A program made the translations under genes and the position numbers. From NCBI GenBank assembly GCA_017512905.1, contig JAFWEL010000019.1, forward strand, positions 1-38,362: a stretch of DNA of 38,362 nucleotides, written 5' to 3'. This document shows positions 13,196 through 38,362 of the stretch, in pieces. The notes below the pieces were generated by a model. It made no database searches. It was not told the DNA's origin and was given only the letters and a program-made list of their open reading frames with translations. Positions within the stretch are counted from its first letter, which is position 1. Each line of letters starts with the position of its first letter. Source of the stretch: Clostridia bacterium (GTDB lineage Bacteria > Bacillota > Clostridia > Christensenellales > Aristaeellaceae).

Positions 13196-13217
13196 CAACT
13201 ATGAGCGAGGAATCATC

Positions 13218-13797: not shown

Positions 13798-13798
13798 G

Positions 13799-16944: not shown

Positions 16945-16967
16945 AACAGTTTACTCCTTTACTGGAA

Positions 16968-16995
16968 ATATGGGTGACATTGCTGTCACCCATAT
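16968..16995 (-). other. 12-bp hairpin between fhs and fchA
   Basis: ATATGGGTGACA (16968-16979) and TGTCACCCATAT (16984-16995) form a perfect stem with a 4-nt loop, 21 nt after the fhs stop codon. Only a short T-run follows (ATTTCC). It could be a partial terminator or a processing site that makes fhs more abundant than the genes behind it. Confidence 0.6.
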
Positions 16996-17016
16996 CCCCT
17001 TTCGGTTTATGATCGA

Positions 17017-20030: not shown

Positions 20031-20776
20031 TGCGTGTGAAAGTCCTCACTTTGGCCTTACTTACGGTTCTGGCGCTGGGGGCAAACGGCCTCGTGCCGGC
20101 ATACGCGACCTGGATCGTGGCCCACCGCGGCGGCGCGGGCGATCATCCCGCGAACACCCTCGAGGCCTTCGGCAGCGCGGCTTCCTCCGGCGCGACGGCG
20201 ATCGAGACCGACGTCCGATCGACGAAGGATGGGATACAGGTCATGTGCCACGACGAAGCCCTGGCCGTCGATGGGGTCGAATACCCGATCAAATCCTGGG
20301 ACTATGCCGACCTTAAGGCGCTCAAGGGTGACCTGTGCACCCTGAATGAAGCCCTTTCGGTCATCGCGGCGACGAACCTCTCCCTCCTGCTGGAGCTCAA
20401 GTCCGGCTCTGACGTTCCTCTGTGCATCGACGCGGTAAAGGCTTACGGGCTGCAGGATCGAACGACCATCATCTCGTTCCGGCAAAAGAAGCTGAAGAAA
20501 GCCCGCGAATGCGACCCCGACATCGCCCTTGGCCTCATCGTCGGCGAAGTGCCGTCGGATGTCGGGAACGCCGTCGAAAGCCTGAAGCTTACGATGGTAT
20601 GCCAGGAATACCACCATCTCACGAGGGACACGCTGGCCGCATGGCGCGACCTGGGACTGCACGTGAACATCTGGACGGTCGACAGCGAAGCGCAGCTGGC
20701 CCAGTACATGAAATGGGGTGTAGACTCCATCACCACCAACTACCCCGAATTGGCCGTATCGCTGATGGATCAGTGA
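20030..20776 (+). CDS. Secreted glycerophosphodiester phosphodiesterase
   Basis: Hydrolyses glycerophosphodiesters to glycerol-3-phosphate and an alcohol. GDPD motifs are HRGG (catalytic His, about residue 36), NTLEAF, ETDVRSTKDG (metal-binding Glu/Asp) and CHDEAL (second catalytic His); LLLELKSG supplies a further metal-binding Glu. A signal peptide is visible at the N-terminus (MRVKVLTLALLTVLALG, ending in AYA), so it acts outside the membrane, where it could release or recycle glycerol phosphate from lipids or teichoic-acid-like polymers. The 248-residue length is normal. Start ATG 20030 overlaps the upstream TAA by one base, implying translational coupling. Confidence 0.93.
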   Translation: MRVKVLTLALLTVLALGANGLVPAYATWIVAHRGGAGDHPANTLEAFGSAASSGATAIETDVRSTKDGIQVMCHDEALAVDGVEYPIKSWDYADLKALKGDLCTLNEALSVIAATNLSLLLELKSGSDVPLCIDAVKAYGLQDRTTIISFRQKKLKKARECDPDIALGLIVGEVPSDVGNAVESLKLTMVCQEYHHLTRDTLAAWRDLGLHVNIWTVDSEAQLAQYMKWGVDSITTNYPELAVSLMDQ

Positions 20777-21813: not shown

Positions 21814-21837
21814 AATGGCAGCTTGAAAGCTGCCATT
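21814..21837 (-). terminator. Probable terminator of the 16-kb surface operon
   Basis: AATGGCAGCT and AGCTGCCATT form a stem with a 4-nt loop. On the minus strand ATTTACTGTTT follows; on the plus strand ATTATTTATTT follows, so it may work both ways. It lies immediately upstream of the LysR -35 box. Confidence 0.7.
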
Positions 21838-21996
21838 ATTTATTTCTCTCAGGTTATAACAACGATATTCGGTAAAACAGTTTTTTGCCCTGGCCAGGAA
21901 AGCCTCCTCATGCTTGCTGGCAGCCCGTCAACGGGCTTGACGCAGTCAGGGCAGGTAAGATGCTCACGGAATCGCTGGTTTATACTGAGAGGCGTA
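21838..21996 (-). other. Structured 3' region downstream of the DUF3786 gene
   Basis: No coding frame is supported. The stretch can fold: TGCCCTG (about 21887) is complementary to CAGGGCA (about 21950), enclosing GCCCG/CGGGC (AGCCCGTCAACGGGCT) and the palindrome CCTGGCCAGG. This could be the 3' untranslated tail of the operon or a small RNA. Confidence 0.35.
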
Positions 21997-22620
21997 TTAC
22001 ATCCGTCGCTTCAGGTCCGATATCAGAATATCCCCCACCACCGTCCGGTCCTCCGCCGAGAACGCCTTGGGGAAGTTGTCGGAGAACAGGATCTGGCTGT
22101 TGGGCGGGAACTCATCATCCCCCTCCCAGACGATCAGGCGAACGTCATAGCCGGGCATGATCTCCAGCTGACAGGAGGCGTCCCCCTTGTCCAGGGGAAT
22201 CGCGGGCAACTGGGCCACTGCAGCGCGAAAGGCCTCCAGCCGGGGTCCGAAGGTGAAGGCCGCCCGGTTCAGGCACCGGCCGGTGAAGGGCTTGAGATAG
22301 ACCTCGCCCCAGGGCATCTCCCGGTAGGGCAGGAACGCGCCCGTGCCCACCGAGTGCCGCCCCTCCAGCAGGTAGCGAATCAGAAGCATCTGGGCCGGAA
22401 GGTTGAACAGGGCAAAGCCATCCGGCGTGGCGCTGCGTATGGAAAACCTGGGCCAGGTGATTTCGTAGTCCACATACAGCAGGCGCATGGTGAACACCTG
22501 CTTCACGGAATCGTATTTAACGCCGCAGCGCTCCGCCGCCTCGACGGGGTCCAGCTTTTCAAACAGTCCGGTATAGTGCTCAAAGGGCACAAGCTCCTTG
22601 TGGTTTTCCACGTTTGGCAT
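21997..22620 (-). CDS. DUF3786-domain protein
   Basis: A 207-residue soluble protein. The family pattern is a conserved N-terminal segment with FTMRLLYVDYEI, a central PWGEVYLKPFTGR, and a C-terminal SDNFPKAFSAEDRTVVGDILI. DUF3786 proteins are common in anaerobes with corrinoid and Wood-Ljungdahl enzymes, but the biochemical role is not known to me. ATG 22620 with GGAGAGG upstream is preferred over an in-frame start at 22668, which would overlap the upstream gene. It is the last gene of the surface operon, 38 nt after the LRR-like gene, and may be an unrelated passenger. Confidence 0.8.
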   Translation of the reverse strand: MPNVENHKELVPFEHYTGLFEKLDPVEAAERCGVKYDSVKQVFTMRLLYVDYEITWPRFSIRSATPDGFALFNLPAQMLLIRYLLEGRHSVGTGAFLPYREMPWGEVYLKPFTGRCLNRAAFTFGPRLEAFRAAVAQLPAIPLDKGDASCQLEIMPGYDVRLIVWEGDDEFPPNSQILFSDNFPKAFSAEDRTVVGDILISDLKRRM

Positions 22621-22658
22621 GATTACACAGTCCTCTCCTTGATCGTCGCCCGGCGCGC

Positions 22659-23270
22659 TCAGGGCCACCAGCTCTGCAGGATCTCCGGCAATTCCGTCCC
22701 GTTCGTCCAGGCGGCCTGCATGGCCTCATAGGAATCCACGTTCCCGATCACGTTCGACTTGCTCGTGTTTCTCAGCTTTGGCAGTTTGTCGGACGGTCCA
22801 TCGGTGATCACGGTGCATTCGTTGCATTCATACAGGAAATCGCGGCTGATGCGCTTGATGCGGGACGGGATATACACAAACCACATCTCGGGGCATTCGC
22901 GGATCGATCCGTTGCCGGCGACGCGCACCTTGTCGCCCAGGCGGACGGTATGCAATATCGCGTATCCGCATATCGCGTCATAGCCGACCTCGGTGATGTC
23001 ATTGCCGATGATGATGTCCGTAATCTCTCCGGCGGTCATGCTTTCGCCCTCGATGAGCGCCTGCATGTCGGTGCCGTACAGCTTGCCCTCTCCGCCGATG
23101 TAGATGACGCCGTCATCCAGCTTCCGGATATAGAGGCTTTCGTTCTGCCTGGTATAGGCCGCCTCGGCCGTCCAGCGTATGATCTGCCTGCCGTCGACGC
23201 ACAGGAACAGCAGCAGGCCGAAGATCACCGCCAGCAGGACGAGGAATACCCGCTTACCCGTGTCCCTCAT
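22659..23270 (-). CDS. Membrane-anchored LRR/BspA-like protein, copy B
   Basis: 203 residues: a short basic N-terminus, one transmembrane segment (VFLVLLAVIFGLLLFLCV, about residues 8-25), then an extracellular domain with leucine-rich-repeat (LRR_5/BspA-type) features such as ITDIIIGNDITEVGYDAICGY and LHTVRLGDKVRVAGNGSI. Start ATG 23270 overlaps the stop codon of the DUF4956 gene (TGATG). It is a paralog of the protein at 25648-26265, sharing the pattern GKLY, IIxG and FLYxC but clearly diverged. Likely a surface recognition or scaffold partner of the CotH/DUF4956 pair; function unknown. Confidence 0.75.
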   Translation of the reverse strand: MRDTGKRVFLVLLAVIFGLLLFLCVDGRQIIRWTAEAAYTRQNESLYIRKLDDGVIYIGGEGKLYGTDMQALIEGESMTAGEITDIIIGNDITEVGYDAICGYAILHTVRLGDKVRVAGNGSIRECPEMWFVYIPSRIKRISRDFLYECNECTVITDGPSDKLPKLRNTSKSNVIGNVDSYEAMQAAWTNGTELPEILQSWWP

Positions 23271-23932
23271 CAGTCGATCGTCCCTTCCTGCACCAGCAGC
23301 GACACGTCATGGAAGACGCCCGTCTGCCGCAGCTCGCGGATCAGGGCCTGGCTGTCCTTCACTTTGCGCACCTCGATGATCAGGTTCACCGCGTCGTTGT
23401 GCACGCTCTCCGTGCGCACGTTGTACCACTTCGCGTACTTCCTCACGATGCCCATGGCCTGCCCCTCGTCATAGGGATAGCTGCCGTCCAGCACCAGGAT
23501 GCGGTTGCGGGATACCCCCGGCACCTCGTCCGACAGCAGGATCGCGATGCCCAGGATCAGCGTCAACGGCAGCGCAATGAAGTAGAGGCCCGCCCCGCAG
23601 ATGATGCCCGTGGCGATGGACCAGAAAAGGAACACCAGGTCCAGCGGATTCTTGATGGCCGTCCTGAAGCGCACGATGGACAGCGCGCCCACCATGCCCA
23701 GCGACACCACCACGCTGGCCTGGATCGTCAGGATCACCGACACCGTGATCACCGACAGCGCCACCAGCGACACCGCGAATTCCTTCGAAAAAAAGTACTT
23801 CCTCGATTTGAAGTAATACACCGCGCAGATCACCAGCGATATCGCCAGGCAGATCAGCATCGCCAGCACCGCGTAACGGAACGTGATCTCCGTATTCGCG
23901 TAGGATGTCAGAAAGCCCTTCTTGAAGATGTC
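23267..23932. repeat. Near-identical 666-nt repeat, copy B
   Basis: Matches 26262-26927 in the same orientation, without gaps and with about 15 mismatches by eye. The repeat covers nearly the whole DUF4956 gene and stops at its ends. Confidence 0.9.
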
Positions 23933-23944
23933 CTTGAAGCCCAT
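23270..23944 (-). CDS. DUF4956 membrane protein, copy B
   Basis: A 224-residue protein with about four transmembrane helices in the first two thirds (AVLAMLICLAISLVICAVYY, FAVSLVALSVITVSVILTI, VFLFWSIATGIICGAGLYFI, LTLILGIAILL) and a cytoplasmic alpha/beta C-terminal part (RILVLDGSYPYDEG onwards). DUF4956 proteins are recurrently found next to CotH kinases and VTC-domain proteins; their activity is unknown. It differs from copy A at only four residues (positions 2, 4, one Ala/Thr and one His/Gln). ATG 23944 overlaps the stop of the CotH gene (TAATG) and has GGAGGGAAGG upstream. Confidence 0.9.
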   Translation of the reverse strand: MGFKDIFKKGFLTSYANTEITFRYAVLAMLICLAISLVICAVYYFKSRKYFFSKEFAVSLVALSVITVSVILTIQASVVVSLGMVGALSIVRFRTAIKNPLDLVFLFWSIATGIICGAGLYFIALPLTLILGIAILLSDEVPGVSRNRILVLDGSYPYDEGQAMGIVRKYAKWYNVRTESVHNDAVNLIIEVRKVKDSQALIRELRQTGVFHDVSLLVQEGTID

Positions 23945-25626
23945 TATTCCTTCCCTCCGTATTGTTCGATGATGTATTCGCGCCGCTCGCGGAAGAAGCT
24001 GTCGATGCTGTCACAGCCCGCGTAGAAATCCTCCAGCGCCATGGTCTCGTGGCTGAAGCGCTGGTATTTCTTTTCGATGGCCTCCGCCATGTCGCGCTTG
24101 TACTCGGCGATAAACGCGCTCACACGCTCCGGCGCGAAGACACCCTCGGCCAGCGTCAGCAGCTTTTCCCGCACGGCCGCCGCGAAGCCCTCGTTTTTCA
24201 TCAGGCTGGCGAACAGCGGATCCCGGTTCGTGGCAGACTTCAGGCTGTTCACCCGCACCCACTGGGCATCCATGCCCTGCTCCACGTCGTAGAGTATCCA
24301 CCGCCAGCGGCAATCCGAGCAGGCCGTATCCGCCTTGTAGCGGGAGCGCCAGAGGGCGATGTTGTTGATGGGCCAGTCGGTGTTGGCGATGTAGATCTCC
24401 ACGGCGAAGTAGTCGATGCAGGATTGTATGTCCAGCAGCTCGCAGGCCTGGGCATAGGCCGCCGGATCGCGCATGTCGTGGTCGGCGATGAAAGACATCA
24501 TGTCCTCATAGAGGTCGATGTCCTCATCCTGGCCCACCTCGATGCGGCCATGCTTGACCTCGACGATGTTCCGGGGGTCGACGTCGTACCTCTGGTTCAG
24601 GTAGTCCTGCTTGAACCTGGGCACGAGCCAGTACACGCCCCAGTATTCCCCGTTCAGGAACATCACGCAGGGCTCCAGCTGACGGTCGGCAAAGTCCATG
24701 CCGTCGGTCAGTTCCTCGACCAGGTAATCCGCCAGCAGCAGCTCGCTGGGGCCGTAGTACAGCGTCATCCGGTTCAGCAGGTAGCGGGCGTCGTACAGGC
24801 TGCCGGTATCGATGCTGTCATTGCCATACTGCTTCCTGGCGAAGATGTTCAGGTTCTTCGGCAGGTTGGCCCGGGTGGCCTTGCCCTGGATTCGGATGCC
24901 GTACTGGCCGGAAAAAACAGGCTCCCCTTCCCGGTCAAAGCAGTGGATCAGCGCCGGACGCTCCCAATCCCTGCCCTTTTGGTTGTAATTCGCCGCCCAG
25001 CTGAACATGTTGACGCCGTTCCGATGGACGACGCCGTCCGACACGTTTTCGGCAAACACATCGCCCAGCACATAGATGCCCTTTTTGGAATCGAACAGGT
25101 TGTCGGGGTCGGTGACGACGGACATGACATTCATGCCGTCATAGCCGGTCTTTTCCCCGAAGCCCACGAAGTAGACCGCGTCGGAGGGCGCGCTGCGGTT
25201 GCCCCATCCATCGACGCTCACCGCCCGTACCACCGTCGCCTTGTCCACCGGCTGATCCGGCACCTGATAGTGGTGGAACAGCTGCACATCGTTCTTATCC
25301 AGCAGCTCGGGCTTCAGATAGGGCGAGACATCGGTGATCATACTGTACACGTTTTCATTTTTGCTGGCGTCCTGTATCAGTATCGGCCCCTCGTAGGGAA
25401 TGCCGCCCTCATCGGGCTCGCTGCCGTCAAGCGTGTAGTAGATATTCCCGCCGTCAGCCTCCAGCTCCAGGTAGAAGGGTGCGTCATAGAACCCGGAAGC
25501 CTCGGAGAAGCGTACCTGACGGACGGCTTCCGGCCGCTGTTCGGGCTGGGCCGCTGCGAAGGCCGCCAGCGCCACGATGCAGATGCCTCCCAGCGCCCAG
25601 TATGCCGCTTTCTTCCATCGACGCAT
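23944..25626 (-). CDS. CotH-kinase family protein, copy B
   Basis: An exported or membrane-anchored protein of 560 residues. N-terminal hydrophobic segment (ALGGICIVALAAFAAA), then a beta-sandwich of the chitobiase-C-terminal type (FYDAPFYLELEADGG, IYYTLDGSEPDEGG), then the CotH domain: YGIRIQGKATR, FLNGEYWGVYWLVPRF, IYIANTDWPINNIALWR and the metal-binding-site-like RWILYDVEQGM. CotH proteins are atypical protein kinases that phosphorylate secreted or spore-coat proteins. GGAGG precedes ATG 25626. Paralogous to the protein at 27644-29338, with moderate similarity. Substrate unknown; the neighbouring LRR-like proteins are candidates. Confidence 0.92.
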   Translation of the reverse strand: MRRWKKAAYWALGGICIVALAAFAAAQPEQRPEAVRQVRFSEASGFYDAPFYLELEADGGNIYYTLDGSEPDEGGIPYEGPILIQDASKNENVYSMITDVSPYLKPELLDKNDVQLFHHYQVPDQPVDKATVVRAVSVDGWGNRSAPSDAVYFVGFGEKTGYDGMNVMSVVTDPDNLFDSKKGIYVLGDVFAENVSDGVVHRNGVNMFSWAANYNQKGRDWERPALIHCFDREGEPVFSGQYGIRIQGKATRANLPKNLNIFARKQYGNDSIDTGSLYDARYLLNRMTLYYGPSELLLADYLVEELTDGMDFADRQLEPCVMFLNGEYWGVYWLVPRFKQDYLNQRYDVDPRNIVEVKHGRIEVGQDEDIDLYEDMMSFIADHDMRDPAAYAQACELLDIQSCIDYFAVEIYIANTDWPINNIALWRSRYKADTACSDCRWRWILYDVEQGMDAQWVRVNSLKSATNRDPLFASLMKNEGFAAAVREKLLTLAEGVFAPERVSAFIAEYKRDMAEAIEKKYQRFSHETMALEDFYAGCDSIDSFFRERREYIIEQYGGKE

Positions 25627-25647
25627 TGATATTCACGCCTCCATGGT

Positions 25648-26265
25648 TCATTGTCGCCACCATTTAGCCACGCCCGCCGGCAGCGCTTCATCGCCGATGG
25701 CGGCCATCAGGGCCTCATGGGAATCCACGCCCGCCAGAATCCGCTTTTGGGTTCGGACGTTGGCCAATTCCGGCAACCCGGAGGCCTTTCCCCCGGTGAC
25801 GATGATGCAGCTCTTGCACATGTAGAGGAAATCCAGGCCCACATCCTCCAGCTTCTCCGGAAACCACAGGTATTCCAGCGCCGGGCAGTTCTTCAGACTC
25901 CCCGGGGCGACGCGGGCCACGCGGTCGCCCAGCTTCAGACTCTTCAGCCTGTCATAGCCGTCGAAGGTGTTGTAGCAGATCTCCGTGACGCGGTCGCCGA
26001 CGATGATGTCCTCAACGGTGTCCTCGTGCAGCCCGACGCTGTTCAGCATCGCCCTGACATCGGCGTCGTAGAGCTTGCCCGCGCCGTGGATCGTGGCCAC
26101 ACTGTCGCCGTCCACCGTCATATACAGATCGCCGTTCACCCGGGGATGGCGACGCTCAATCTGCATCTGGGCATCGACGGAGCGCCGGGCGAAGAGAAAG
26201 ACAAGCAGCCCTAAGCAAACCACCAGCGCGGCCAGAAGGATGCGCCTTCCCCCGTCGTGCTTCAT
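25648..26265 (-). CDS. Membrane-anchored LRR/BspA-like protein, copy A
   Basis: 205 residues: one N-terminal transmembrane segment (ILLAALVVCLGLLVFLFA), then a surface domain with LRR_5-like units (VEDIIVGDRVTEICYNTFDGY, LKSLKLGDRVARVAPGSL, LEYLWFPEKLEDVGLDFLY). ATG 26265 overlaps the DUF4956 stop codon (TGATG), and CotH copy B follows 21 nt after its own stop. It has the same position and architecture as copy B (22659-23270) but is diverged from it throughout, in contrast to the adjacent DUF4956 genes. Confidence 0.75.
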   Translation of the reverse strand: MKHDGGRRILLAALVVCLGLLVFLFARRSVDAQMQIERRHPRVNGDLYMTVDGDSVATIHGAGKLYDADVRAMLNSVGLHEDTVEDIIVGDRVTEICYNTFDGYDRLKSLKLGDRVARVAPGSLKNCPALEYLWFPEKLEDVGLDFLYMCKSCIIVTGGKASGLPELANVRTQKRILAGVDSHEALMAAIGDEALPAGVAKWWRQ

Positions 26266-26927
26266 CAGTCGATCGTCCCTTCCTGCACCAGCAGCGACAC
26301 GTCCTGGAAGACGCCCGTCTGCCGCAGCTCGCGGATCAGGGCCTGGCTGTCCTTCACCTTGCGCACCTCAATGATCAGATTCACCGCGTCGTTGTGCACG
26401 CTCTCCGTGCGCACGTTGTACCACTTCGCGTACTTCCTCACGATGCCCATGGTCTGCCCCTCGTCATAGGGATAGCTGCCGTCCAGCACCAGGATGCGGT
26501 TGCGGGATACCCCCGGCACCTCGTCCGACAGCAGGATCGCGATGCCCAGGATCAGCGTCAGCGGCAGAGCGATGAAGTAGAGGCCCGCCCCGCAGATGAT
26601 GCCCGTGGCGATGGACCAGAACAGGAACACCAGGTCCAGCGGATTCTTGATGGCCGTCCTGAAGCGCACGATGGACAGCGCGCCTACCATGCCCAGCGAC
26701 ACCACCACGCTGGCCTGGATCGTCAGGATCACCGACACCGTGATCACCGACAGTGCCACCAGCGACACCGCGAATTCCTTCGAGAAGAAGTACTTCCTCG
26801 ATTTGAAGTAGTACACCGCACAGATCACCAGCGATATCGCCAGGCAGATCAGCATCGCCAGCACCGCGTAACGGAACGTGATCTCCGTATTCGCGTAGGA
26901 TGTCAGAAAGCCCTTCTTGAAGATGTC
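26262..26927. repeat. Near-identical 666-nt repeat, copy A
   Basis: Partner of 23267-23932, offset exactly 2995 bp, same length, no insertions or deletions. Confidence 0.9.
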
Positions 26928-26939
26928 ACTGAAGCTCAT
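26265..26939 (-). CDS. DUF4956 membrane protein, copy A
   Basis: A 224-residue polytopic membrane protein with the same four-helix plus cytoplasmic-domain layout as copy B and only four residue differences. The start is ATG 26939 (MSFSDIF) with GGAGG 8 nt upstream; an in-frame upstream start at 26954 lacks a ribosome site. It overlaps the 3' end of the VTC gene by 14 nt, so the two are coupled. Here the partner set is CotH-A and the VTC protein; in copy B it is CotH-B alone. Confidence 0.9.
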   Translation of the reverse strand: MSFSDIFKKGFLTSYANTEITFRYAVLAMLICLAISLVICAVYYFKSRKYFFSKEFAVSLVALSVITVSVILTIQASVVVSLGMVGALSIVRFRTAIKNPLDLVFLFWSIATGIICGAGLYFIALPLTLILGIAILLSDEVPGVSRNRILVLDGSYPYDEGQTMGIVRKYAKWYNVRTESVHNDAVNLIIEVRKVKDSQALIRELRQTGVFQDVSLLVQEGTID

Positions 26940-27660
26940 TGATCTTGCCTCCAATCGCTCTGCAGCCCAGGTAGAATTTGGAAAAGGTCGTCTGGCGCAT
27001 GTGCCCGCTGTCGATCAGCTGATAGATGACGTCCGGGAGGAAGTCGTCGTACTTGACCTCCAGCACGTGATAACCGGTGGGCAGCACCGCGATCCGGGAG
27101 ATGCGGGGTTCGAAAATCTCCCCCACCTGGCTGGATGCGCTGATATTCCGGTCAAAGGTGATGCGCACATTACCCAGCCGGTAGACGTAGGGCTTGCGCA
27201 CATATTCCCCCAGCATCACCGGGTGAAGCCTTGCGGTCTCGGACTGGAGGATCCACTCGTCCAGCAGCGGATCCCGGCCCAGCTGATCCCGGATGGACTG
27301 GCCCAAGAGCATCTTCATGCAGGTCTGCCGGTCGATCAGGCAGCTCTTCTTCCCCGTCATCGTGTGGCTCTTGATCTTCTTTTCCAGGGAAATGCGTCCA
27401 TCGAAGCAGTTGTAGGCGCGTATGCGGAACTTCTCGCGGGGATCCACGCCGTCCTCGTTTTCAAAGAAGCAGCTCCTGTGATAGTCGTCAAAGTAGACGC
27501 TGCGTATCAGGTATTCCCCGTTTTCGTCGGCATGGGGATCGGGCTGCATCACGGCCTTCAGCTTCTGTTCGACGATTCGCAGCTCCAGCTCGTCGCAGAT
27601 GTACTTCAGCTCATGCCGGTACTTGTCCGCCTCCAGCACCGTTTTACTTCTTTTTATCAC
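26926..27660 (-). CDS. VTC-domain (polyphosphate polymerase-like) protein
   Basis: A 244-residue cytoplasmic protein of the VTC/triphosphate-tunnel type, in which basic and acidic strands line a tunnel that binds ATP and polyphosphate. Tunnel motifs are RHELKY near the N-terminus, SVYFDD, REKFRIRAYN, SLEKKIKS, ITFDRNI and the C-terminal VLEVKYDDFLPD. Yeast Vtc4 makes polyphosphate; bacterial stand-alone proteins next to CotH and DUF4956 are uncharacterised as far as I know. GTG 27660 overlaps the CotH-A gene by 17 nt; a second GTG at 27639 is possible. Only one VTC gene exists although the module is duplicated. Confidence 0.92.
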   Translation of the reverse strand: MIKRSKTVLEADKYRHELKYICDELELRIVEQKLKAVMQPDPHADENGEYLIRSVYFDDYHRSCFFENEDGVDPREKFRIRAYNCFDGRISLEKKIKSHTMTGKKSCLIDRQTCMKMLLGQSIRDQLGRDPLLDEWILQSETARLHPVMLGEYVRKPYVYRLGNVRITFDRNISASSQVGEIFEPRISRIAVLPTGYHVLEVKYDDFLPDVIYQLIDSGHMRQTTFSKFYLGCRAIGGKINELQ

Positions 27661-29338
27661 CGTATGCCTCCATAATGTAGTCGTGCCTCATCCGGAAGAA
27701 CGTCTTGATGTCCTCGCAGCTGTTCACGAAATCCTCTTCCGTCCTGTCGTTCATGAAGCGCATGTACTCATTCCCCATGGCGTGGCGCATGCGGGCGGCA
27801 TATTCGTCCACAAAGGCGTCCACCCGCTCCGGGCTGAAGACATCCTCGGCCATATCCACCAGCCTGGCGTACAGCTCGGCCTTGAAGGTCTTGTTGTCCA
27901 GCAGGCTGCCAAATATGGCGTCCCGCTTTGACGTCCGGCCCACAAAGTCGTCGTCCGCTCGCTCGGGATTCATCGAGAGGTTGACGTCGAACATCACCCA
28001 GCGCCACTTGCCGTCCGCGTCGGGCTGGTCTGTCGTCCTGCGAACGCGCCACAGGGAGCGGTTGTTGGTCGGCCAATCGGTGTTGGCGATGTACAGCTCG
28101 ATGGCGTAGTAGTCGATCCAGCTCTGGATATCGACGGCTTCGCAAACCCGGGCGTAATTCTCATCGTCCCGCAGGTCGTTGTCGGCGATCAGGCGAAGCA
28201 TATCCTTGTAGGGCCTGTAATCCTCGTCGGTGCCCACTTCGATGTGATCGACCTTAGTTTCGATCACGTCCCCGTCTCGGATGCCGTACTTGTTCTGGAA
28301 ATAATCCTCCTTGAATCGGGGCGTCAGCCAATATACGCCCCAGTATTCCCCGTCCAGGAAGAGCTCGTAGGGCTCATATTCCCGGGTCAGGATGTCGCAA
28401 TCCGCGGCGAGGGTGTTTACCAGCAGGTCGTGGATCTTGGTGTCCACGCCCTGCCCGCCGCCGTTCAGGTTCACGCTGTGCAGCTGCCAGTCCTCGCCAA
28501 AGAGGGGCAGCGCGGGAATGGATTCGGTGCCGTAGCGCTTGCGGGCAAAGATATTCAGGCTCTTGGGCAGCATGTAGCGGCTCGCGCCGCCCTGGATGCG
28601 TATGCCGTAGGTTCCCGACAGCGTCAGGTTCCTCTCGGCGTCGAAAAAGCAGATATCGGCCTCCCGCTCCCATTCCTTGCCCCGGTTCTTGTAATTACCA
28701 GCCCAGTTGCCGAAGTTGGGCAGGGCGGGCGGCACACCCGCGCCCTCCACGAGGGTATCGTCAAAGGTCTTTCCCAGCACATAGATGCCCTTTTCAAAAT
28801 CAAAGAGGTTTTCCGGGTTCGTGACGATGGAAATGACATTGATGCCGTCGTAGGCCTGCTTCTGGTCAAAGCCCACGAAGTAGACGCCGTTGACGATGTC
28901 GCTGCGGTTGCCGAAGGCGTCGATACACACGGCGCGGATGACCGTCGCCTTGTCGATGGACTGAACGGGCGTCTTGAACCCGAACTTGGGTTCCCTGCCC
29001 GCGATCTCCAGGATATCCGTTCTCAGTTCGATGCAGACGTCCTCGATCATGCTGTAGACGTTGGGATTGCCGCTGGCGTCCTCGATCAGTATAGGCCCGG
29101 TGTACAGCAGGGAATGCTCATCCGGCTCCGTGGAATCCAGCGTATAGCGGATCTCCCCCCGGTCGCAGGTCATCTCAAGGTAAAACGGGCTGTCATAAAA
29201 TCCGGATTCCACGGATAATCTCACCGGCGTCACCGGCTGGTCGCTGTCCTTGCTCAGGCTCAGCCCATACACCAGCAGGGCGGCGACCAGTGCCACGCCC
29301 AGCAGGCAATGCACAACGCCTCTCCATCTGCGCTTCAA
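27644..29338 (-). CDS. CotH-kinase family protein, copy A
   Basis: 564 residues: an N-terminal membrane segment (CLLGVALVAALLVYGLSL), a chitobiase-like beta-sandwich (FYDSPFYLEMTCDRG, IRYTLDSTEPDEH), then the CotH domain with YGIRIQGGASR, FLDGEYWGVYWLTPRF, LYIANTDWPTNNRSLWR and RWVMFDVNLSM. The last motif has Asn where copy B has Glu, close to the presumed metal site, so the two may differ in activity. The start is TTG 29338 with GGAGG 10 nt upstream. It follows the LTA-synthase-like gene by 24 nt and overlaps VTC. Confidence 0.92.
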   Translation of the reverse strand: MKRRWRGVVHCLLGVALVAALLVYGLSLSKDSDQPVTPVRLSVESGFYDSPFYLEMTCDRGEIRYTLDSTEPDEHSLLYTGPILIEDASGNPNVYSMIEDVCIELRTDILEIAGREPKFGFKTPVQSIDKATVIRAVCIDAFGNRSDIVNGVYFVGFDQKQAYDGINVISIVTNPENLFDFEKGIYVLGKTFDDTLVEGAGVPPALPNFGNWAGNYKNRGKEWEREADICFFDAERNLTLSGTYGIRIQGGASRYMLPKSLNIFARKRYGTESIPALPLFGEDWQLHSVNLNGGGQGVDTKIHDLLVNTLAADCDILTREYEPYELFLDGEYWGVYWLTPRFKEDYFQNKYGIRDGDVIETKVDHIEVGTDEDYRPYKDMLRLIADNDLRDDENYARVCEAVDIQSWIDYYAIELYIANTDWPTNNRSLWRVRRTTDQPDADGKWRWVMFDVNLSMNPERADDDFVGRTSKRDAIFGSLLDNKTFKAELYARLVDMAEDVFSPERVDAFVDEYAARMRHAMGNEYMRFMNDRTEEDFVNSCEDIKTFFRMRHDYIMEAYGDKKK

Positions 29339-29362
29339 ATCCGTTGAACCTCCACTCGTTAA

Positions 29363-32215: not shown

Positions 32216-32275
32216 TTCCAAGTCCTCCGATGGTGTGTGTGCTTTCCGGTCGTCCCGTTTGGCGAATGGCCCTTG

Positions 32276-33901
32276 TTACATCCTTCCGTGGACGTACTCG
32301 ATCAGCTTCTGGCGCATGACGTACTGGTAGCGGGTCTCCTGCACGGCCTTCAGCTGCTCGGTGGAGGTGTCGAAGCACACGGCGTCCACGACGCAACCCA
32401 ATTGGTTGTCGTAGACCACGAAGTGGATGCCCCGGCCCTCCGGCGCGTAGTCGGTGCCCCAGATGTCCACCGTGCCGCCCTTTTTGGCGTCGCTCGTCTT
32501 GCTCCTGACCTTGTATTGCAGGCCATCCGAAAGCCTGCCCTCGGTGGAGCAGGATTTGGGGTCATGCAGCTCCTCGATCATGTGGCCGTGGCTGGAAATG
32601 CCGATGTAGGCCCCGTTGTCCGCGTCCCGCAGGTCGAGCTTTGTGCCCGTTACCGCCTCAAGGCTGCGCTGGGCCTCGTCGCTCCAATAATCGCCGATGC
32701 CGCCGGAAACGGCGGTGAACAGCGTGTAATCCCCCGCCTTGACGCGGTCGAGGAAGCCCAACAGATCGTGCTCCAGCTCCAGGTCCAGGTATTCCACCTC
32801 GCTGGCGTAGATCTGGCTCTGATGGTCCCACTGGGCATCCACCTTCGCGTTCGCCTCGGAGCTGAGGCCGAACTCCCGCTGCATCCAGTCCAGGAGCCTG
32901 GCGGTGATCTTCCGCGCGCCGCTGTGGTTCACATGGATGCCGCCGTCGAAAGCGTCAAACTGCCAGTCGAGGCCCAGGTCATCGTAGCACATGTCCAGGA
33001 ATTTCACGCCCAACCGGTCGGCCATGGCCTGGGTGAGGGCGTGCTTGTTGGCGCTCCAGTAGCCCCTGGCGCGGGTATTCGCGCAGACCGGCACCTTCAT
33101 GAAGGCGAGCTCCGCCCCGTGGGCCTGGCAAAGGTCGCGCAACTTTTCAAGATAGGGCTCGTTGGCCGCGATGCAGCCCTCCAGCACCTTGCGGTTGTCA
33201 TCATCGTCCGCATAGGGATCGCTCTCATCCAGCATGGCCCGGGCGGTCCTGACCTCCTCTTCCTCCACGGCGATGAAGTCATAGGTAGCCACATAGCCCT
33301 TGCGCTGGTAGGGTTCGTTCATGTAAAGCCGCTGGAAGCTGTCCTCCTCCACGTGATAATCCGAGTGGTATCGCAGCAGCGGCAGCAGGGCGCTCAGCAG
33401 GTATTCACTGTCATCCTCGCGGTTTTGCATCCGCGCAATGTCCTTCATCATGTCCAGCTTTTCCCGGTAGCAGCTTAGCGGAAGGCTGTCGATCATTTCC
33501 TCCCACTTGCCCGGCACCAGGAGCTCTTCCTCGGAATAGAAGAAACCGCTGGCGTCGATCACCACCAGCCTGGGCGACTGCGTGTGCAGTATGCTCTTGA
33601 GCAGGTAGTAGGCCACGGGCACACGCTGGCCGATAGACGCCAGATTATAGGATCGGATATGGCTCGCGTTGTAAATATCCATCGGCGAGATCGAGCAGAA
33701 GGTCTGACTGGTGCCCAGATAGATCGCGTCCAGGCTGTTCCTGGGCTCGAGAAACGCGCCGCGAATGCTCTTGTAGGAGCGGCGGTTGTGAACGGGCCAG
33801 TCGTATTTGGGCGTCACGACGTTCTGGATCCAGCCGATAACAGAGACGGCCAGCAGCAGAAATACCACGGCGCCCACGGCTCGCTTTATCCTCAGGCTCA
33901 T
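32276..33901 (-). CDS. SGNH/DltD-like membrane-anchored protein
   Basis: 541 residues with one N-terminal transmembrane segment (AVVFLLLAVSVIGWI) and an extracellular domain. It shows an SGNH-type nucleophile GTSQ (Ser65 in YLGTSQTF), a following Asn in YNLASIGQ, and a C-terminal FDGGIHVNHSGARKI carrying the Asp-x-x-His-like pair. This is the layout of DltD and AlgX/AlgJ-type O-acyl-transfer partners of MBOAT proteins. AGAGGAG precedes ATG 33901, 40 nt after the MBOAT gene, the same order as dltB-dltD. It is longer than DltD (about 400 residues); the extra C-terminal part is unassigned. Confidence 0.8.
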   Translation of the reverse strand: MSLRIKRAVGAVVFLLLAVSVIGWIQNVVTPKYDWPVHNRRSYKSIRGAFLEPRNSLDAIYLGTSQTFCSISPMDIYNASHIRSYNLASIGQRVPVAYYLLKSILHTQSPRLVVIDASGFFYSEEELLVPGKWEEMIDSLPLSCYREKLDMMKDIARMQNREDDSEYLLSALLPLLRYHSDYHVEEDSFQRLYMNEPYQRKGYVATYDFIAVEEEEVRTARAMLDESDPYADDDDNRKVLEGCIAANEPYLEKLRDLCQAHGAELAFMKVPVCANTRARGYWSANKHALTQAMADRLGVKFLDMCYDDLGLDWQFDAFDGGIHVNHSGARKITARLLDWMQREFGLSSEANAKVDAQWDHQSQIYASEVEYLDLELEHDLLGFLDRVKAGDYTLFTAVSGGIGDYWSDEAQRSLEAVTGTKLDLRDADNGAYIGISSHGHMIEELHDPKSCSTEGRLSDGLQYKVRSKTSDAKKGGTVDIWGTDYAPEGRGIHFVVYDNQLGCVVDAVCFDTSTEQLKAVQETRYQYVMRQKLIEYVHGRM

Positions 33902-33941
33902 CGCTCATTTCTCCTCTTTACTGAAATCGTCCGTTGCATCG

Positions 33942-35522
33942 TCAGAACCCGGCGTACACAAATCCCGCCGCGTCATAACTCGGTCCGTAGACGCCCAGCA
34001 GTATCACCGTGGCGATGGCACCGATGTACAGCGCCCACCGGAAGACGAGGTTCTGACGCTCGATGGCCTCGCGAATGTGAACGCCCCTTTCCTGCAACAG
34101 GCTCACCGTCAGCAGCACCAGCACCGCCACGAACAGCACGAACATCTCCCAGGCGTTCAGGCCCAGCTTGAACAGCGTGCCGTCGGTGAAAATCCAGATG
34201 TTGTGAATCTTGAGTATGCTCCATCCGATGCGCAGTGCCTCATAGAGACCGCTGGCTTTAAAGATGATGCGGCCACCCATGATCAGCGCCAGCGTCCTTA
34301 GCATCTGCCACAGCCGCCAGCTGAAGCAGTCGGTGCGGATCTTCAGCTTTGCGATGATCCATTCAAACACCGGTTCAAACTGCATGCCCAGCACGATCAG
34401 TATGCCCTGGTACATGCCGAAGGCCACAAATTGCCAGCCCGCGCCGTGCCAGATGCCGTTGAGGATCCAGACCAGCACCATCGCCAGGTAGGTCGGAAGC
34501 ATCTTGGCCATGTTCGGCCCCAGGCGCTTGCGGCAGGCGGCGGTCAGCTTCTGGGCCCCCCTGGAGATGGACAGGGGATAAAACACATATTCCCTGAACC
34601 ACGCGCCCAGGGTGATGTGCCATCTGCGCCAGTATTCGGATATGCTCCTTGAAAAGTAGGGATGGTCAAAGTTGACGGGCATGTAGACGCCCAGGATCTC
34701 CGCCGCGCCGCCGATGATGTCCATGCCGCCGGAGAAATCCGCGTAAATCTGTATGGTATAGGCCAGCGCGCCGATGACGAACACCAGTCCCTGGTATTCT
34801 CCCGAATGGCCGAAAACCCTCTCGGAAATGGTGACCACCCGGTCGGCGATCACCAGCTTTTTGAAATAGCCCCACAGCATCCGCTGCATGCCGAATTTTA
34901 CACGGCGATAGTCGAAATCATGGGGCTCGTACAGCTGGGGCGCTGTCTCCCGGTAGCGGCAGATAGGGCCCTGCAGCATCTGGGGAAAGAAGCAGAGCCA
35001 CAGCAGCAGCTTAAAATAATTGCGCTGCACCTCGCACTTGCCCCTGGAGAGATCGACCACATAGCTGACGGCCTGGAGCGTATAAAATGAAATGCCCAGA
35101 GGCAGCACCAGATGCCACAGGCTCAGGCCGGTGGAGAGGTATTTGTTTAATGTGGTGATAAACAGGTCGGCAAACTTGAACACGACCCATATGGCGATAT
35201 TGATCGCGGCCACCAGCGCCGCGTAGCGCCGCTTGACCCGCTCGTTCTGCTTTTTCAGCGCGCGCTTGTCGGCCCGGTCCAAATCGGGCTGCGCCTTCAG
35301 CTGCGCTGCGTACTTCTGTTCCTGGCGTTCGATCAGCAGGCCGCCTGTATAGATGGAGATGGATGTGACAAGCATCCATACGGCAAGCTTCAGATCATAG
35401 GAAAGGTAGTTGGCGATGCTGGCGATGAGCAGCGTCACCCAGCGGAATCGCCGGGGCGTGATGAAATACGCCAGCGCCACGACAGCCACGAACGCCAGAT
35501 AAAACAGAGATACGATATTCAT
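33942..35522 (-). CDS. MBOAT-family O-acyltransferase (DltB/AlgI-like)
   Basis: A 526-residue polytopic membrane protein that moves an acyl group across the membrane onto an extracytoplasmic acceptor. Signatures are WRRWHITLGAWFREYVFYPLS and the catalytic-His segment NGIWHGAGWQF, with PQMLQGPICRY and YADFSGGMDIIGG typical of the AlgI/DltB branch. The N-terminal helix and about ten further membrane segments are visible, plus a cytoplasmic basic loop near residues 70-100. It lies 22 nt after the ACP gene, whose product is the likely acyl donor, and before the SGNH protein. Confidence 0.95.
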   Translation of the reverse strand: MNIVSLFYLAFVAVVALAYFITPRRFRWVTLLIASIANYLSYDLKLAVWMLVTSISIYTGGLLIERQEQKYAAQLKAQPDLDRADKRALKKQNERVKRRYAALVAAINIAIWVVFKFADLFITTLNKYLSTGLSLWHLVLPLGISFYTLQAVSYVVDLSRGKCEVQRNYFKLLLWLCFFPQMLQGPICRYRETAPQLYEPHDFDYRRVKFGMQRMLWGYFKKLVIADRVVTISERVFGHSGEYQGLVFVIGALAYTIQIYADFSGGMDIIGGAAEILGVYMPVNFDHPYFSRSISEYWRRWHITLGAWFREYVFYPLSISRGAQKLTAACRKRLGPNMAKMLPTYLAMVLVWILNGIWHGAGWQFVAFGMYQGILIVLGMQFEPVFEWIIAKLKIRTDCFSWRLWQMLRTLALIMGGRIIFKASGLYEALRIGWSILKIHNIWIFTDGTLFKLGLNAWEMFVLFVAVLVLLTVSLLQERGVHIREAIERQNLVFRWALYIGAIATVILLGVYGPSYDAAGFVYAGF

Positions 35523-35544
35523 GGATAATGCCCTCTCGTTCCCG

Positions 35545-35772
35545 TCATTCGTTCTGCAGCGTATGGATCAGCTCCAGCATCGCTTCAACGGAGTTAAAGT
35601 TTTCCGGTTCAAGGTCATCCACATCGATTTCGATGTCATAGTGCTCGTTCAGCTCATTGACGATGGAAATGATGTCAAAGGAATCCAGTATGCCGTCGTC
35701 GATCAGCTTCTTCTCCTTGACAAAGTCCACCTTGGGGCAAATTTCAGACAGCAGCTTCAGCAGTTCATCCAT
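35545..35772 (-). CDS. Acyl carrier protein (DltC-like)
   Basis: A 75-residue acidic helical carrier protein. The phosphopantetheine attachment Ser is in DDGILDSFDII (about residue 31). GGGAGGAG precedes ATG 35772. Its place between a ligase/acetyltransferase pair and an MBOAT gene, away from fatty-acid synthesis genes, makes it a dedicated carrier for surface acylation. The 103 bp upstream (35773-35875) contain a GC-rich inverted repeat (CGCGACCGCGCGAGAGCGCG) and no gene. Confidence 0.93.
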   Translation of the reverse strand: MDELLKLLSEICPKVDFVKEKKLIDDGILDSFDIISIVNELNEHYDIEIDVDDLEPENFNSVEAMLELIHTLQNE

Positions 35773-35875
35773 GGTTTCTCTCCTCCCGTCACATTGGGCT
35801 TGGATGTCGCGTCGCGCTCTCGCGCGGTCGCGGTTCAGTGTATCTCGAGGGCATTATCCATAAATATGTTCTTCT

Positions 35876-36532
35876 TTAAGCCTCGGCAGAGGCCAGCAGA
35901 GCGTCCACCGTCTCCTCCGTCAGATCGGAAGAGAGCAGCGGCCAGTTTTCAAGGATCTTCTCCCGCTCCCAGTCCCACCACTTCAGGCGCAGCAGCTTTT
36001 CAATGACCGGCGCTTCAAAGCGATAGCGGATGATCCGGGCGGGCACGCCCGCGACGATGGCGTAGGGCGGAACGCTCTTTGTCACCACCGCGCCGCTGCC
36101 AATGACCGCGCCGTCGCCGATCTCAAGCCCGCTCTTGCGGGTGATCGCCGCGCCAACGCCGATCCAGACGTCGTTGCCCACGCGGATGATTTCCTCGTCC
36201 TGGTGCATCGACAGCTTGCCGCCCAGCTTGTTGAGCAGCCGGTAGGAGGGCATCATCGATGCCGCCCGGTAATTGTGCTCGTTGCCGCCAATTTCCACCC
36301 GACGGGCGATGCAGCAGTATTTGCCCACTTCGGCCCACATGATGCCCACGTCAGCGCCGGTGTAGGTCATATCGCCGATGACGGCGCTGCGAATCAGGTT
36401 GCGCTTTTCTATGTCCACATAGTCACCGATGGTCGAATTCAGCACCACGCTGTCGTGATCTATGGTGGAACGCTTGCCGAGGGTGCTGTTCTTGACGACG
36501 GCATCCTCCGCGACGGCCTTGATCAATGCCAT
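35876..36532 (-). CDS. Left-handed beta-helix (hexapeptide repeat) acetyltransferase
   Basis: A 218-residue cytoplasmic acyltransferase of the LbH family: repeated [LIV]-G-x4 turns at STLGKRSTIDHDSVVLNS, ISNTIGDYVDIEK-type units and VWIGVGAAITRKSGLEIGDG, and GNDVWIGVGA, the usual CoA-binding turn. GNEHNYRA holds the probable catalytic His. Such enzymes O- or N-acetylate sugars. GAGGT lies 6 nt before ATG 36532, and the ligase gene ends 27 nt upstream. It could modify the polymer's sugar precursor or the acyl substrate; sequence does not tell. Confidence 0.9.
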   Translation of the reverse strand: MALIKAVAEDAVVKNSTLGKRSTIDHDSVVLNSTIGDYVDIEKRNLIRSAVIGDMTYTGADVGIMWAEVGKYCCIARRVEIGGNEHNYRAASMMPSYRLLNKLGGKLSMHQDEEIIRVGNDVWIGVGAAITRKSGLEIGDGAVIGSGAVVTKSVPPYAIVAGVPARIIRYRFEAPVIEKLLRLKWWDWEREKILENWPLLSSDLTEETVDALLASAEA

Positions 36533-36559
36533 ATCTGTTACCTCGCTTCAATGCCCCGC

Positions 36560-37960
36560 TCACAGCGGCGGGAGCTGGCTGTAGAGCACCTTCTGGGAGG
36601 TGTTCCTGGGGATAGCCGGTATGACGCCGGACTTTTGCAGCTTGCGGTTGATGTCCATTTCAGTAAAGACGTATTCCACGACTTCATCCTCAAGGGCCGG
36701 GTCCACCACGTAAATCCAGAGCTCGTCGTCCTTGCCGCCGCAGGCGATATCCCCGGTATCGAACCGCTTCTTCAGAAGCCGCTCCACGTCGTCCAGGTTA
36801 ATGCGCTTGCCGAGGATCTTCAGAAAGCGCTTTTTGCGGCCGACGATGTAGTAAAAGCCGTCCGCGTCCCGGCGGGCCATGTCCCCCGTCACCAGGCGGC
36901 CATGGTTTTCGTCCGGCTTGTTCAGGTCCTCGCCGGTCAGCGCATAGCCCAGGGTGACGTTCTTGCCGTAATACACCAGCTCGCCCACCTGATCCGGTTC
37001 GTCGATGACCTCGCCGTCCGCGCCGATCAGCTCAAACCGCCCGCCGGGAATCGGTATGCCCATGCTGCCCTGCTTCTCGAGGGAGCGCTCGGGCGGCAGG
37101 TAGCCCATGCGGGCGGTCGCCTCGGAGGCGCCGTACATCACGATGAACCGCTTGCCGTTTTCCATGGCCCACGCGGCCAGCTTCTGGTGCAGCTCAGGCG
37201 ACAGCTTGCCGCCGGCCTGGGTCATCGTCTTCAGGGAGGGCAGTTCGCGCTTGAGGATGCGCAGCTTGTCGATGGTCTCGTAGGTGAAGGGAACGCCGGC
37301 AAAGGAGGTCACGCCCTCTCGGTCCACCAGGTCCCAGAACTTCTTGGCGTAGGGATTGAGGCTTGTCAGCACCAGCGTCGCGCCGGCATAGATGTGAGTG
37401 TTGACCACGGACAGGCCGTAGACATAGTTCATCGGCAGCGATGTGATCGCCCGCTCTTTTGCGTCAATGCCCAGGTACTCGATGATGGCTTGGGTATTCG
37501 AGCGGATGTTCTCATAGGTCTGGCGCACCAGCTTCGGGCTGCCGGTGGAGCCGGACGTGGAGATCAACACGCACAGGGCCTCGTTCATGGCAAAGGGCGC
37601 GCCGGCATTCACCGACTGGAGCCTGTAGCCCTCCAGCTCCAGCGCCACATCGCCCTCGGGCAGCTTCTCCACCATGTCCGCGGGAGTCCAGATCCACGCG
37701 GGGTGATAGGCTTCGACCAGCTGATTCAGCAGATCCCGGCTGATTTTGGCATCCAGCAGCAGCGGCACATGGCCGTGCTCGGTGAAAGCCAGGTAACCGG
37801 CCACAGAAGCCACCGTATTGGTGCACAGGCAGAAGATCAAAGACCTCTCGCCCAGCTGCCCGGCGATCTGTGCGCAAAGGCCGTCCAGTTCGGTGTATGT
37901 GAGCTTGCGCTCGCCCTCGATCATGGCGATCCTGTCGCCCTTATCCCCGATATTCCACAT
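36560..37960 (-). CDS. AMP-forming acyl/amino-acid ligase (DltA-like adenylation enzyme)
   Basis: Activates a carboxylic or amino acid as the adenylate and probably loads the nearby acyl carrier protein. ANL-superfamily motifs are all present: STSGSTGSPKLV (A3), VMYGASEATARMGYLP (A5), GDMARRDADGFYYIVGRKKRFLKILG (A7/A8) and the catalytic Lys in RNTSQKVLY near the C-terminus. At 466 residues it is slightly shorter than DltA (about 505). I prefer ATG 37960 (MWNIGDKG), which has GGGAG at 9 nt; the ATG at 37990 has no ribosome site. First gene of the surface operon. Whether the substrate is D-alanine or another acid cannot be read here. Confidence 0.92.
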   Translation of the reverse strand: MWNIGDKGDRIAMIEGERKLTYTELDGLCAQIAGQLGERSLIFCLCTNTVASVAGYLAFTEHGHVPLLLDAKISRDLLNQLVEAYHPAWIWTPADMVEKLPEGDVALELEGYRLQSVNAGAPFAMNEALCVLISTSGSTGSPKLVRQTYENIRSNTQAIIEYLGIDAKERAITSLPMNYVYGLSVVNTHIYAGATLVLTSLNPYAKKFWDLVDREGVTSFAGVPFTYETIDKLRILKRELPSLKTMTQAGGKLSPELHQKLAAWAMENGKRFIVMYGASEATARMGYLPPERSLEKQGSMGIPIPGGRFELIGADGEVIDEPDQVGELVYYGKNVTLGYALTGEDLNKPDENHGRLVTGDMARRDADGFYYIVGRKKRFLKILGKRINLDDVERLLKKRFDTGDIACGGKDDELWIYVVDPALEDEVVEYVFTEMDINRKLQKSGVIPAIPRNTSQKVLYSQLPPL

Positions 37961-38051
37961 ATCATCAATCTCCCAATTCAAAATTCGCATGATTGCCGTT
38001 ATACCAGGTCAACGTACGACTCAAAAGTACAGAATTAATCAATGATATTTT

Positions 38052-38081
38052 ATCATATCCGGCCTGATCAGGGGGCGACAA
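38052..38081 (-). promoter_or_regulatory. Probable promoter of the 16-kb surface operon
   Basis: Minus strand TTGTCG (38076-38081), 18-nt spacer, TATGAT (38052-38057), with an imperfect palindrome GATATGATAAAATATC overlapping the -10. The whole gap 37991-38138 otherwise holds no gene. Confidence 0.5.
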
Positions 38082-38138
38082 ACCCGTTGCAGCATTGATA
38101 TATTTGGGTTAACAATGGTGTATCAACCACCCATAAAG

Positions 38139-38209: not shown

Positions 38210-38362
38210 TCAGATCTCCAAGTAGGAGTCGGCGTAGAGGTTGTTGTTCTTGATGATGTCGCAGGTCTTGACGGTCTCCATCAGGCGCTGGTCGTTGGGG
38301 TTGACGATGGCGCTGGTCAGGCCCTGCATCATCGCCATCGCCAGCATGCAGCTGTCGAAGAT
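38210..38362 (-). CDS. acsE: C-terminus of AcsE-like methyl-THF:corrinoid protein methyltransferase (partial)
   Basis: The last 50 residues of a protein that continues beyond the window edge; the stop is at 38210-38212. The visible segment contains MAMMQGLTSAIVNPNDQRLM followed by a helix and LYADSYLEI. This resembles the C-terminal end of the pterin-binding TIM-barrel methyltransferases, in particular AcsE, where a helix AMxxGLDxAIxxPxD precedes the terminus. AcsE moves the methyl group from methyl-THF to the corrinoid iron-sulfur protein, the step between FolD and AcsB in this pathway. The call rests on a short segment and on context. Confidence 0.65.
   Translation of the reverse strand: MFDSCMLAMAMMQGLTSAIVNPNDQRLMETVKTCDIIKNNNLYADSYLEI

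Follow-up and report, generated by a model that had tools for sequence, protein, structure and literature searches.

A fourteen-gene clostridial operon predicted to decorate a surface glycan joins a Dlt-like acyl-transfer chain to a CotH/VTC/DUF4956 module

The 38,362-bp stretch analyzed here (the window) is a complete contig, JAFWEL010000019.1, in an assembly of 209 contigs from a Clostridia bacterium. Fourteen open reading frames on its minus strand, running from position 37990 to 21997, form a predicted operon that we read, with moderate confidence, as a surface-glycan decoration system assembled from two joined modules, one of which handles polyphosphate. The ligase would activate a carboxylic acid (probably not an α-amino acid) and load it onto the carrier protein, a DltB-like MBOAT protein would carry the acyl group across the membrane, and an anchored SGNH protein would set it on a surface glycan. 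A GacH-like enzyme would put glycerol phosphate on the same glycan. A cytosolic VTC protein would form polyphosphate from ATP together with the MgtC-like membrane protein DUF4956, and CotH kinases anchored outside the cell would phosphorylate either the glycan or the leucine-rich repeat (LRR) proteins of this layer. In this scheme we infer the type of acyl group, its acceptor, the order of the steps, their sidedness and the joint action of both modules. Glycan decoration is supported by a gene order shared between this genome and four others up to their contig ends, by a conserved promoter, and by substitution ratios well below 1. It is also supported by the nearest solved relatives of gene 6 (GacH) and of the MBOAT protein (DltB), by a ligase and an SGNH protein of the window type in a polysaccharide cluster of another family, and by CotH, VTC and DUF4956 genes beside glycan genes elsewhere. 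Families, conserved catalytic-type residues, hydropathy, linkage and conservation were read directly from the following features:

38040-38115, minus strand: promoter region with a -35 element TTGTCG at 38081, a -10 element TATGAT ending at 38052 and an upstream AACCC...GGGTT motif (alignment of upstream DNA).
36560-37990, minus strand: gene 1, AMP-forming acyl ligase, 476 aa, Lys467 kept (Pfam, NCBIfam, nearest solved relative MenE).
35876-36532, minus strand: gene 2, left-handed beta-helix acetyltransferase, 218 aa, related to ApmA, CatB and Vat (Pfam, NCBIfam, solved relatives).
35545-35772, minus strand: gene 3, acyl carrier protein, 75 aa (Pfam, NCBIfam).
33942-35522, minus strand: gene 4, MBOAT acyltransferase (Pfam, NCBIfam, nearest solved relative DltB).
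32276-33901, minus strand: gene 5, SGNH-type protein with an N-terminal hydrophobic anchor and weak C-terminal ILEI similarity (alignment, hydropathy).
29363-32221, minus strand: gene 6, polytopic GacH-like phosphoglycerol transferase, 952 aa (Pfam Sulfatase, solved relative, hydropathy).
27644-29338, minus strand: gene 7, CotH kinase a with an N-terminal hydrophobic anchor (Pfam, hydropathy, profile).
26926-27660, minus strand: gene 8, VTC polyphosphate polymerase domain protein, no hydrophobic segment (Pfam, profile, hydropathy).
26265-26954, minus strand: gene 9, DUF4956 copy a, five hydrophobic segments, MgtC-like (Pfam, hydropathy, hhalign).
25648-26265, minus strand: gene 10, LRR_5-like protein a with an N-terminal anchor (Pfam, hydropathy).
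23944-25626, minus strand: gene 11, CotH kinase b with an N-terminal anchor (Pfam, hydropathy).
23270-23944, minus strand: gene 12, DUF4956 copy b, sharing 97.3% DNA identity with copy a (Pfam, DNA comparison).
22659-23270, minus strand: gene 13, LRR_5-like protein b with an N-terminal anchor (Pfam, hydropathy).
21997-22668, minus strand: gene 14, DUF3786 protein, no hydrophobic segment (Pfam, hydropathy).
21814-21837, minus strand: stem-loop at the operon end with a perfect 10-bp stem and the better T-run on the plus strand (sequence).

The layout is compact: intergenic distances range from -29 to +103 bp, and neighboring genes overlap at 6 of the 13 junctions. An earlier note, made from the letters of this DNA, had described fourteen same-strand genes with small gaps and many overlaps, and this description is borne out. 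Its gene order also agrees with our family checks, which used Pfam for the 14 genes plus the LysR and glycerophosphodiester phosphodiesterase genes beyond them, and NCBIfam for genes 1-10 and 14. Matches above the Pfam cut-off comprise AMP-binding, hexapeptide, PP-binding, MBOAT, Sulfatase, CotH (twice), VTC, DUF4956 (twice) and DUF3786, and LRR_5 scores under its cut-off in both LRR genes. Membrane segments and anchors were assigned by simple hydropathy. The single promoter placed at 38052 by the earlier note gains support from an alignment of the sequences that precede gene 1, in which the block 38115-38040 with its -35/-10 pair is strongly conserved in all five operon-bearing genomes; a consensus promoter scan by itself, however, performs at chance level (8 found, 6.8 expected, sd 2.3). 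The terminator proposed at 21814 has its perfect stem, but the T-run serves the plus strand better, and the claim is therefore weak.

The genes stay together in relatives. Our sample of 120 genomes, own genome included, contains 27 other genomes of the same genus, and four of these (G008, G009, G010 and G018) carry orthologs of genes 5 and 6 together. G010 retains 13 of the 14 genes in identical order, with one DUF4956 gene fewer, followed by a LysR gene. The other three follow the same order until their contigs end, 139 bp past the VTC gene in G009 and inside DUF4956 in G008 and G018. The latter two are likely assembly breaks, because DUF4956 is a duplicated gene with nearly identical DNA. 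A scan of genome contigs gave two loci, both of which match genomes from this set. The earlier note would have abandoned its proposal if no other genome kept these genes together; four relatives of the same genus do keep them together. Ratios of nonsynonymous to synonymous substitution (dN/dS), determined against G008 and/or G010 only, at dS 0.23-1.0 and with gene 12 left out, are 0.065-0.25 for genes 1-9 and 14, with the exception of gene 5 against G010 (0.37), and 0.29-0.54 for the LRR genes and CotH kinase b. These values indicate that the operon is under purifying selection.

Genes 1-5 resemble an acyl-transfer chain of the Dlt type. The highest-scoring NCBIfam models for the ligase, all under their cut-offs, are an exosortase-associated acyl-CoA ligase (145 bits), a long-chain acyl-CoA ligase (139 bits) and amino-acid adenylation (135 bits); DltA is absent from the best 25 of 95 matches. 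The carrier protein reaches 36.1 and 26.7 bits with the DltC models (cut-offs 68 and 52.35). DltB is the nearest solved relative of the MBOAT protein, which falls below the DltB equivalog TIGR04091 (140 bits, cut-off 375). Gene 5 matches no Pfam family at E 0.01, GDSL appearing at E 0.024 only, and up to E 1 there is no DltD match, only weak GDSL and ILEI. The predicted SGNH nature of this protein rests on Ser65, Asp319 and His323, which are invariant in 10 aligned sequences, and its C-terminal ILEI similarity is highest in the G010 ortholog (23.0 bits, cut-off 27). A further MBOAT gene adjoining two SGNH-like genes lies in stretch L105 (5878-10658), in which no carrier protein or ligase matches were found.

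The identity of the acyl group was addressed by aligning the ligase with DltA-like ligases. In DltA-type ligases, the Asp of motif A4 binds the amino group of d-alanine. This residue (FD motif) is present in 6/6 aligned DltA-like ligases and is missing from the ligases of the window, G008 and G010. Three of the six were also scanned with DltA models; with these models, ligases from three other modules reach 267-314 bits, and the ligase of G023 is CoA-ligase-like. Since the window ligase lacks the A4 Asp, its acyl group is probably not d-alanine, and d-alanine was discarded as the likely substrate.

Gene 6 is better described as a GacH-like glycan phosphoglycerol transferase than as a lipoteichoic acid synthase. 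Its nearest solved relative is GacH (5wcx, E 1.6e-15), with the E/T/DH residues aligned. In GacH-like transferases, the catalytic roles belong to a Glu, a Thr and an Asp-His pair, and the corresponding E565, T606, D795 and H796 of gene 6 are invariant in 5/5 sequences. With the LtaS equivalog model, in contrast, gene 6 scores 23.9 bits (cut-off 970). We therefore dropped the label of lipoteichoic acid synthase. The match to gene 6 in G008 spans one TAA codon (L097, 6003-6160), and the listed open frame there measures 936 aa.

These results bear on the earlier note's own version, in which the product of the operon would be an anionic polymer resembling lipoteichoic acid, with Dlt-style acylation. 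A DltB-like MBOAT protein, a DltC-like carrier and a sulfatase-fold transferase would fit this version, as would the amino-acid adenylation model in third place for the ligase. Yet the closest relative of the supposed polymer synthase decorates a glycan, the ligase departs from DltA at the A4 position, and gene 5 is not recognized as DltD, so that we consider a lipoteichoic-acid-like product very unlikely. What survives of the earlier proposal is one conserved, mostly envelope-facing unit with acyl-transfer, phosphoglycerol-type and CotH/VTC/DUF4956 parts; the polymer synthase and the implied d-alanylation do not.

The second module comprises genes 7-13. For CotH, the profile finds spore coat protein H as a solved relative (5jd9, E 4.4e-6). 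An Asp/Asn/Asp set makes up the catalytic residues of CotH kinases, and the equivalent D421, N426 and D451 are invariant in 16/16 sequences. Genes 7 and 11, each with a CotH domain above the Pfam cut-off, are predicted kinases. The best solved match of the VTC profile is yeast VTC4 (E 7e-16), and the tunnel domain keeps the charged residues R15, K19, K77, R79, R81, E201 and K228 in at least 95% of 44 sequences. Searches with the single CotH and VTC sequences had given no usable solved relative; the profiles did find them. Yeast VTC carries its own membrane domain. By simple hydropathy, in contrast, no hydrophobic segment was detected in the VTC protein of the window or in 24/24 relatives listed. 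The two DUF4956 copies share 97.3% of their DNA, compared with 63% for the CotH copies and 58% for the LRR copies, which suggests gene conversion between the DUF4956 genes.

Profile comparison indicates that DUF4956 is MgtC-like. Aligning 40 DUF4956 with 20 MgtC sequences in hhalign gave probabilities of 97.8-98.2% over 195-199 columns, corresponding to full length; the transmembrane half by itself reached 93% and the C-terminal half only 64%. Reversed controls stayed at 1.0-1.3%, and controls with unrelated families belong to an earlier comparison with a smaller DUF4956 set and an MgtC alignment containing wrong-frame open reading frames. The MgtC Pfam model PF02308 does not report DUF4956, and hmmscan at E 0.01 assigns both copies to DUF4956 only. 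No paper linking DUF4956 with MgtC was found in a literature search covering few subscription papers.

In the samples searched, VTC and DUF4956 occur as a pair. Among the 120 genomes, VTC is found in 87 and DUF4956 in 86, all inside the VTC set; in the exception, G011, the VTC gene lies at a contig edge, and the DUF4956 match of G086 scores under the Pfam cut-off. In a phylum-wide sample of 129 genomes, both families occur in an identical 15, the window genome included. At the 19 VTC loci listed there outside the window genome, DUF4956 is adjacent at 18, the remaining one lying at a contig edge, and CotH at 11. Within 2.5 kb, measured between match starts, DUF4956 accompanies 137 of the 150 VTC matches listed in relatives, and CotH accompanies at least 85 of them. 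The sampled genomes are related, and Fisher tests of this adjacency are not independent. Among 14 named controls, VTC and DUF4956 have matches in an identical three (Bacteroides ihuae, Corynebacterium glutamicum and Methanosarcina acetivorans), and consecutive VTC, DUF4956 and CotH genes occur in a Nonomuraea record. At L256, L261, L262 and L265, the pair is neighbored by a divergent gene for a response regulator, and at L264 by one for a histidine kinase; shared control is possible.

This pairing raises the idea that VTC and DUF4956 constitute a polyphosphate synthase and translocator, and that polyphosphate, once exported, serves CotH kinases as phosphate donor in the ATP-poor space outside the cell. 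For anchored kinases without ready ATP such a donor would be attractive, and the co-occurrence and adjacency of the pair are consistent with it, as is the combination of a VTC protein devoid of hydrophobic segments with a DUF4956 protein that has five. CotH is matched in 86/87 VTC genomes among the 120 (under the Pfam cut-off in one of them, G096). Bacillus subtilis, with a CotH that works intracellularly, lacks a VTC match. On the other hand, 9/95 CotH genomes have no VTC match, 8/19 of the phylum-wide VTC loci have no neighboring CotH by the profile used, and the solved CotH binds AMP. From five stretches fetched, one of which (L245) had no match to the CotH profile, we recovered four CotH open reading frames, three genomes without VTC and G110 being their sources; all four have a hydrophobic N-terminus, although two score weakly and that of L244 reaches the end of its stretch. 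On this ground we rejected the notion that secretion of CotH is limited to genomes with VTC. We find polyphosphate as the donor rather doubtful, and its combination with our main proposal, in which the pair makes and exports polyphosphate that feeds CotH and is coupled here to the attachment of acyl and glycerol-phosphate groups to the same glycan, is improbable. What is left is a looser form, with polyphosphate or its export taking effect in the same surface layer.

The two halves of the operon were also found apart, which identifies them as separate building blocks: by these comparisons, the operon is composed of a Dlt-like acyl chain with a GacH-like enzyme and of a CotH/VTC/DUF4956/LRR module. 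In 395 genomes of the order, own genome included, relatives of gene 4 occur in 118 and relatives of gene 7 in 113; among the matches listed, and judged by eye, both lie within 20 kb on one contig only in G203, G213 and G020 besides the window genome. Matches to ligase, carrier protein, MBOAT and SGNH occur together in 14 of 20 hand-picked MBOAT-relative loci, and of 20 hand-picked CotH loci, 8 have VTC, 7 of these with DUF4956 as well. Both sets were taken mostly from the top of the match lists, L208, L209 and L210 being chosen for an MBOAT match on the same contig. Across 291 genomes of the class, gene 5 matches occur in 65. The best one outside the genus (25% identity over 3-524) is in G700, from another family, where an SGNH gene, a ligase of the window type (476 bits), a carrier protein and an MBOAT gene sit inside a polysaccharide cluster with a flippase, a glycosyltransferase, a nucleotidyl transferase and a dehydratase.

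The CotH/VTC/DUF4956 module likewise adjoins glycan genes in several other families. The gene orders are PelG-CotH-CotH-VTC-DUF4956 in G831 (L258), GT2-LRR_5-DHHW-VTC-DUF4956-CotH in G734 (L274) and MBOAT-DHHW-GDSL-CotH-VTC-DUF4956 in G203 (L208), and in G032 (L248) a gene resembling gene 6 (59 bits) precedes CotH-VTC-DUF4956. Three of four plasmid matches were opened (not H3): a Pseudobutyrivibrio plasmid has the trio amid glycosyltransferases, acyltransferases and pyruvyl transferases, and a Planococcus maritimus plasmid (L276) has VTC-DUF4956-CotH with a HEAT-repeat protein and a glycosyltransferase. VTC-locus neighbors were scanned for a hand-picked part only; hence no frequency is given for glycan neighbors.

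The operon sits inside a Wood-Ljungdahl locus. The acsE gene ends directly upstream of it in 5/5 genomes (3' end at 38210-38362 in the window), cooS, acsB, folD and fhs occupy the other side (7116-18810), and in G009 metF, acsD and acsC precede acsE; metF, acsC and folD score under their cut-offs. Gene 14, which overlaps the last LRR gene in the window and comes after it in G010, may belong to these carbon-fixation genes and not to the surface system. Just beyond the LysR gene lies a glycerophosphodiester phosphodiesterase gene (20030-20776), with a signal-like N-terminus by eye.

Two functionally unrelated modules with different targets might, then, simply share a promoter after insertion into the Wood-Ljungdahl locus. 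Such an arrangement agrees with the occurrence of either module without the other in other genomes and with the restriction of the whole set to one genus within the samples searched. It sits less well with a gene order and orientation that have persisted to dS values of about 0.4-1.0, or with acyltransferase or gene-6-like genes adjoining CotH/VTC/DUF4956 in other families, and we regard it as unlikely. Our preferred reading, the decoration of one surface glycan, nevertheless has several points to its debit besides that restriction. None of the 20 hand-picked MBOAT-relative loci contains a CotH, VTC or DUF4956 match, and several VTC loci have neighbors of another kind, for example an aminotransferase gene (L263) or genes of two-component systems. 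LRR protein a and CotH kinase b are poorly conserved to G010 (44% and 56%). The SGNH and ILEI assignments of gene 5 are based on weak scores, and the amino-acid adenylation model (cut-off 317 bits) still takes third place for the ligase. Finally, no glycan-polymerizing gene was recognized in the operon, so that the putative glycan acceptor would have to be made elsewhere.

If the proposal holds, DUF4956 and prokaryotic VTC proteins would acquire a first testable role, an MgtC-like fold would be tied to polyphosphate, and there would be a possible answer to how bacteria phosphorylate outside the cell without ATP. It would further suggest that one glycan-decorating unit can combine genes for acylation, for glycerol phosphate and for CotH-type phosphorylation.

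Comparison with known systems places the operon between several of them. Like DltABCD, it holds a ligase, a carrier protein, a DltB-related MBOAT protein and an anchored SGNH-type protein; unlike DltABCD, it has a ligase without the Asp motif and no DltD family match, and it adds a hexapeptide acetyltransferase and the GacH-like enzyme. With GacH of the group A carbohydrate, gene 6 shares a sulfatase-fold catalytic domain with E/T/DH aligned and a hydrophobic N-terminal half, but it stands in a different operon, GacH being encoded in the gacA-L cluster according to the available part of PMC12282279. In Gram-positive pel clusters, CotH, polyphosphate polymerase, DUF4956 and DUF4832 adjoin pelDEADAFG, and a regulatory role has been suggested for CotH (available part of PMC7112168). 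These clusters resemble ours in uniting the first three families beside surface-glycan genes; our operon differs in that two CotH, two DUF4956 and two LRR genes are joined to an acyl chain, and no pel family or DUF4832 match was found among its 14 genes, the LysR and phosphodiesterase genes being scanned for pel too. The Clostridium perfringens locus NELoc-2 holds VTC, 'tubulin', CotH and glycosyl transferase genes (available part of PMC2879425), and we infer that the 'tubulin' genes (226 and 222 aa) are DUF4956. NELoc-2 and Planococcus L276 would thus share VTC, DUF4956, CotH, a HEAT-repeat protein and a glycosyltransferase, with no acyl-transfer chain or GacH-like gene in the parts seen. The earlier note regarded the co-occurrence of CotH, VTC and DUF4956 as known but was not aware of its coupling with a full Dlt-like set. 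No paper with at least three of CotH, DltB, phosphoglycerol transferase, polyphosphate polymerase and MBOAT was found, in a literature short on subscription papers, and in the samples searched the full set occurs in one genus only; however, acyltransferases, a gene-6-like transferase or pelG adjoin CotH/VTC/DUF4956 in other families, in keeping with the pel clusters. From these comparisons, the coupling appears to be a variant on a known theme, with the VTC-DUF4956 pair as its interesting by-product.

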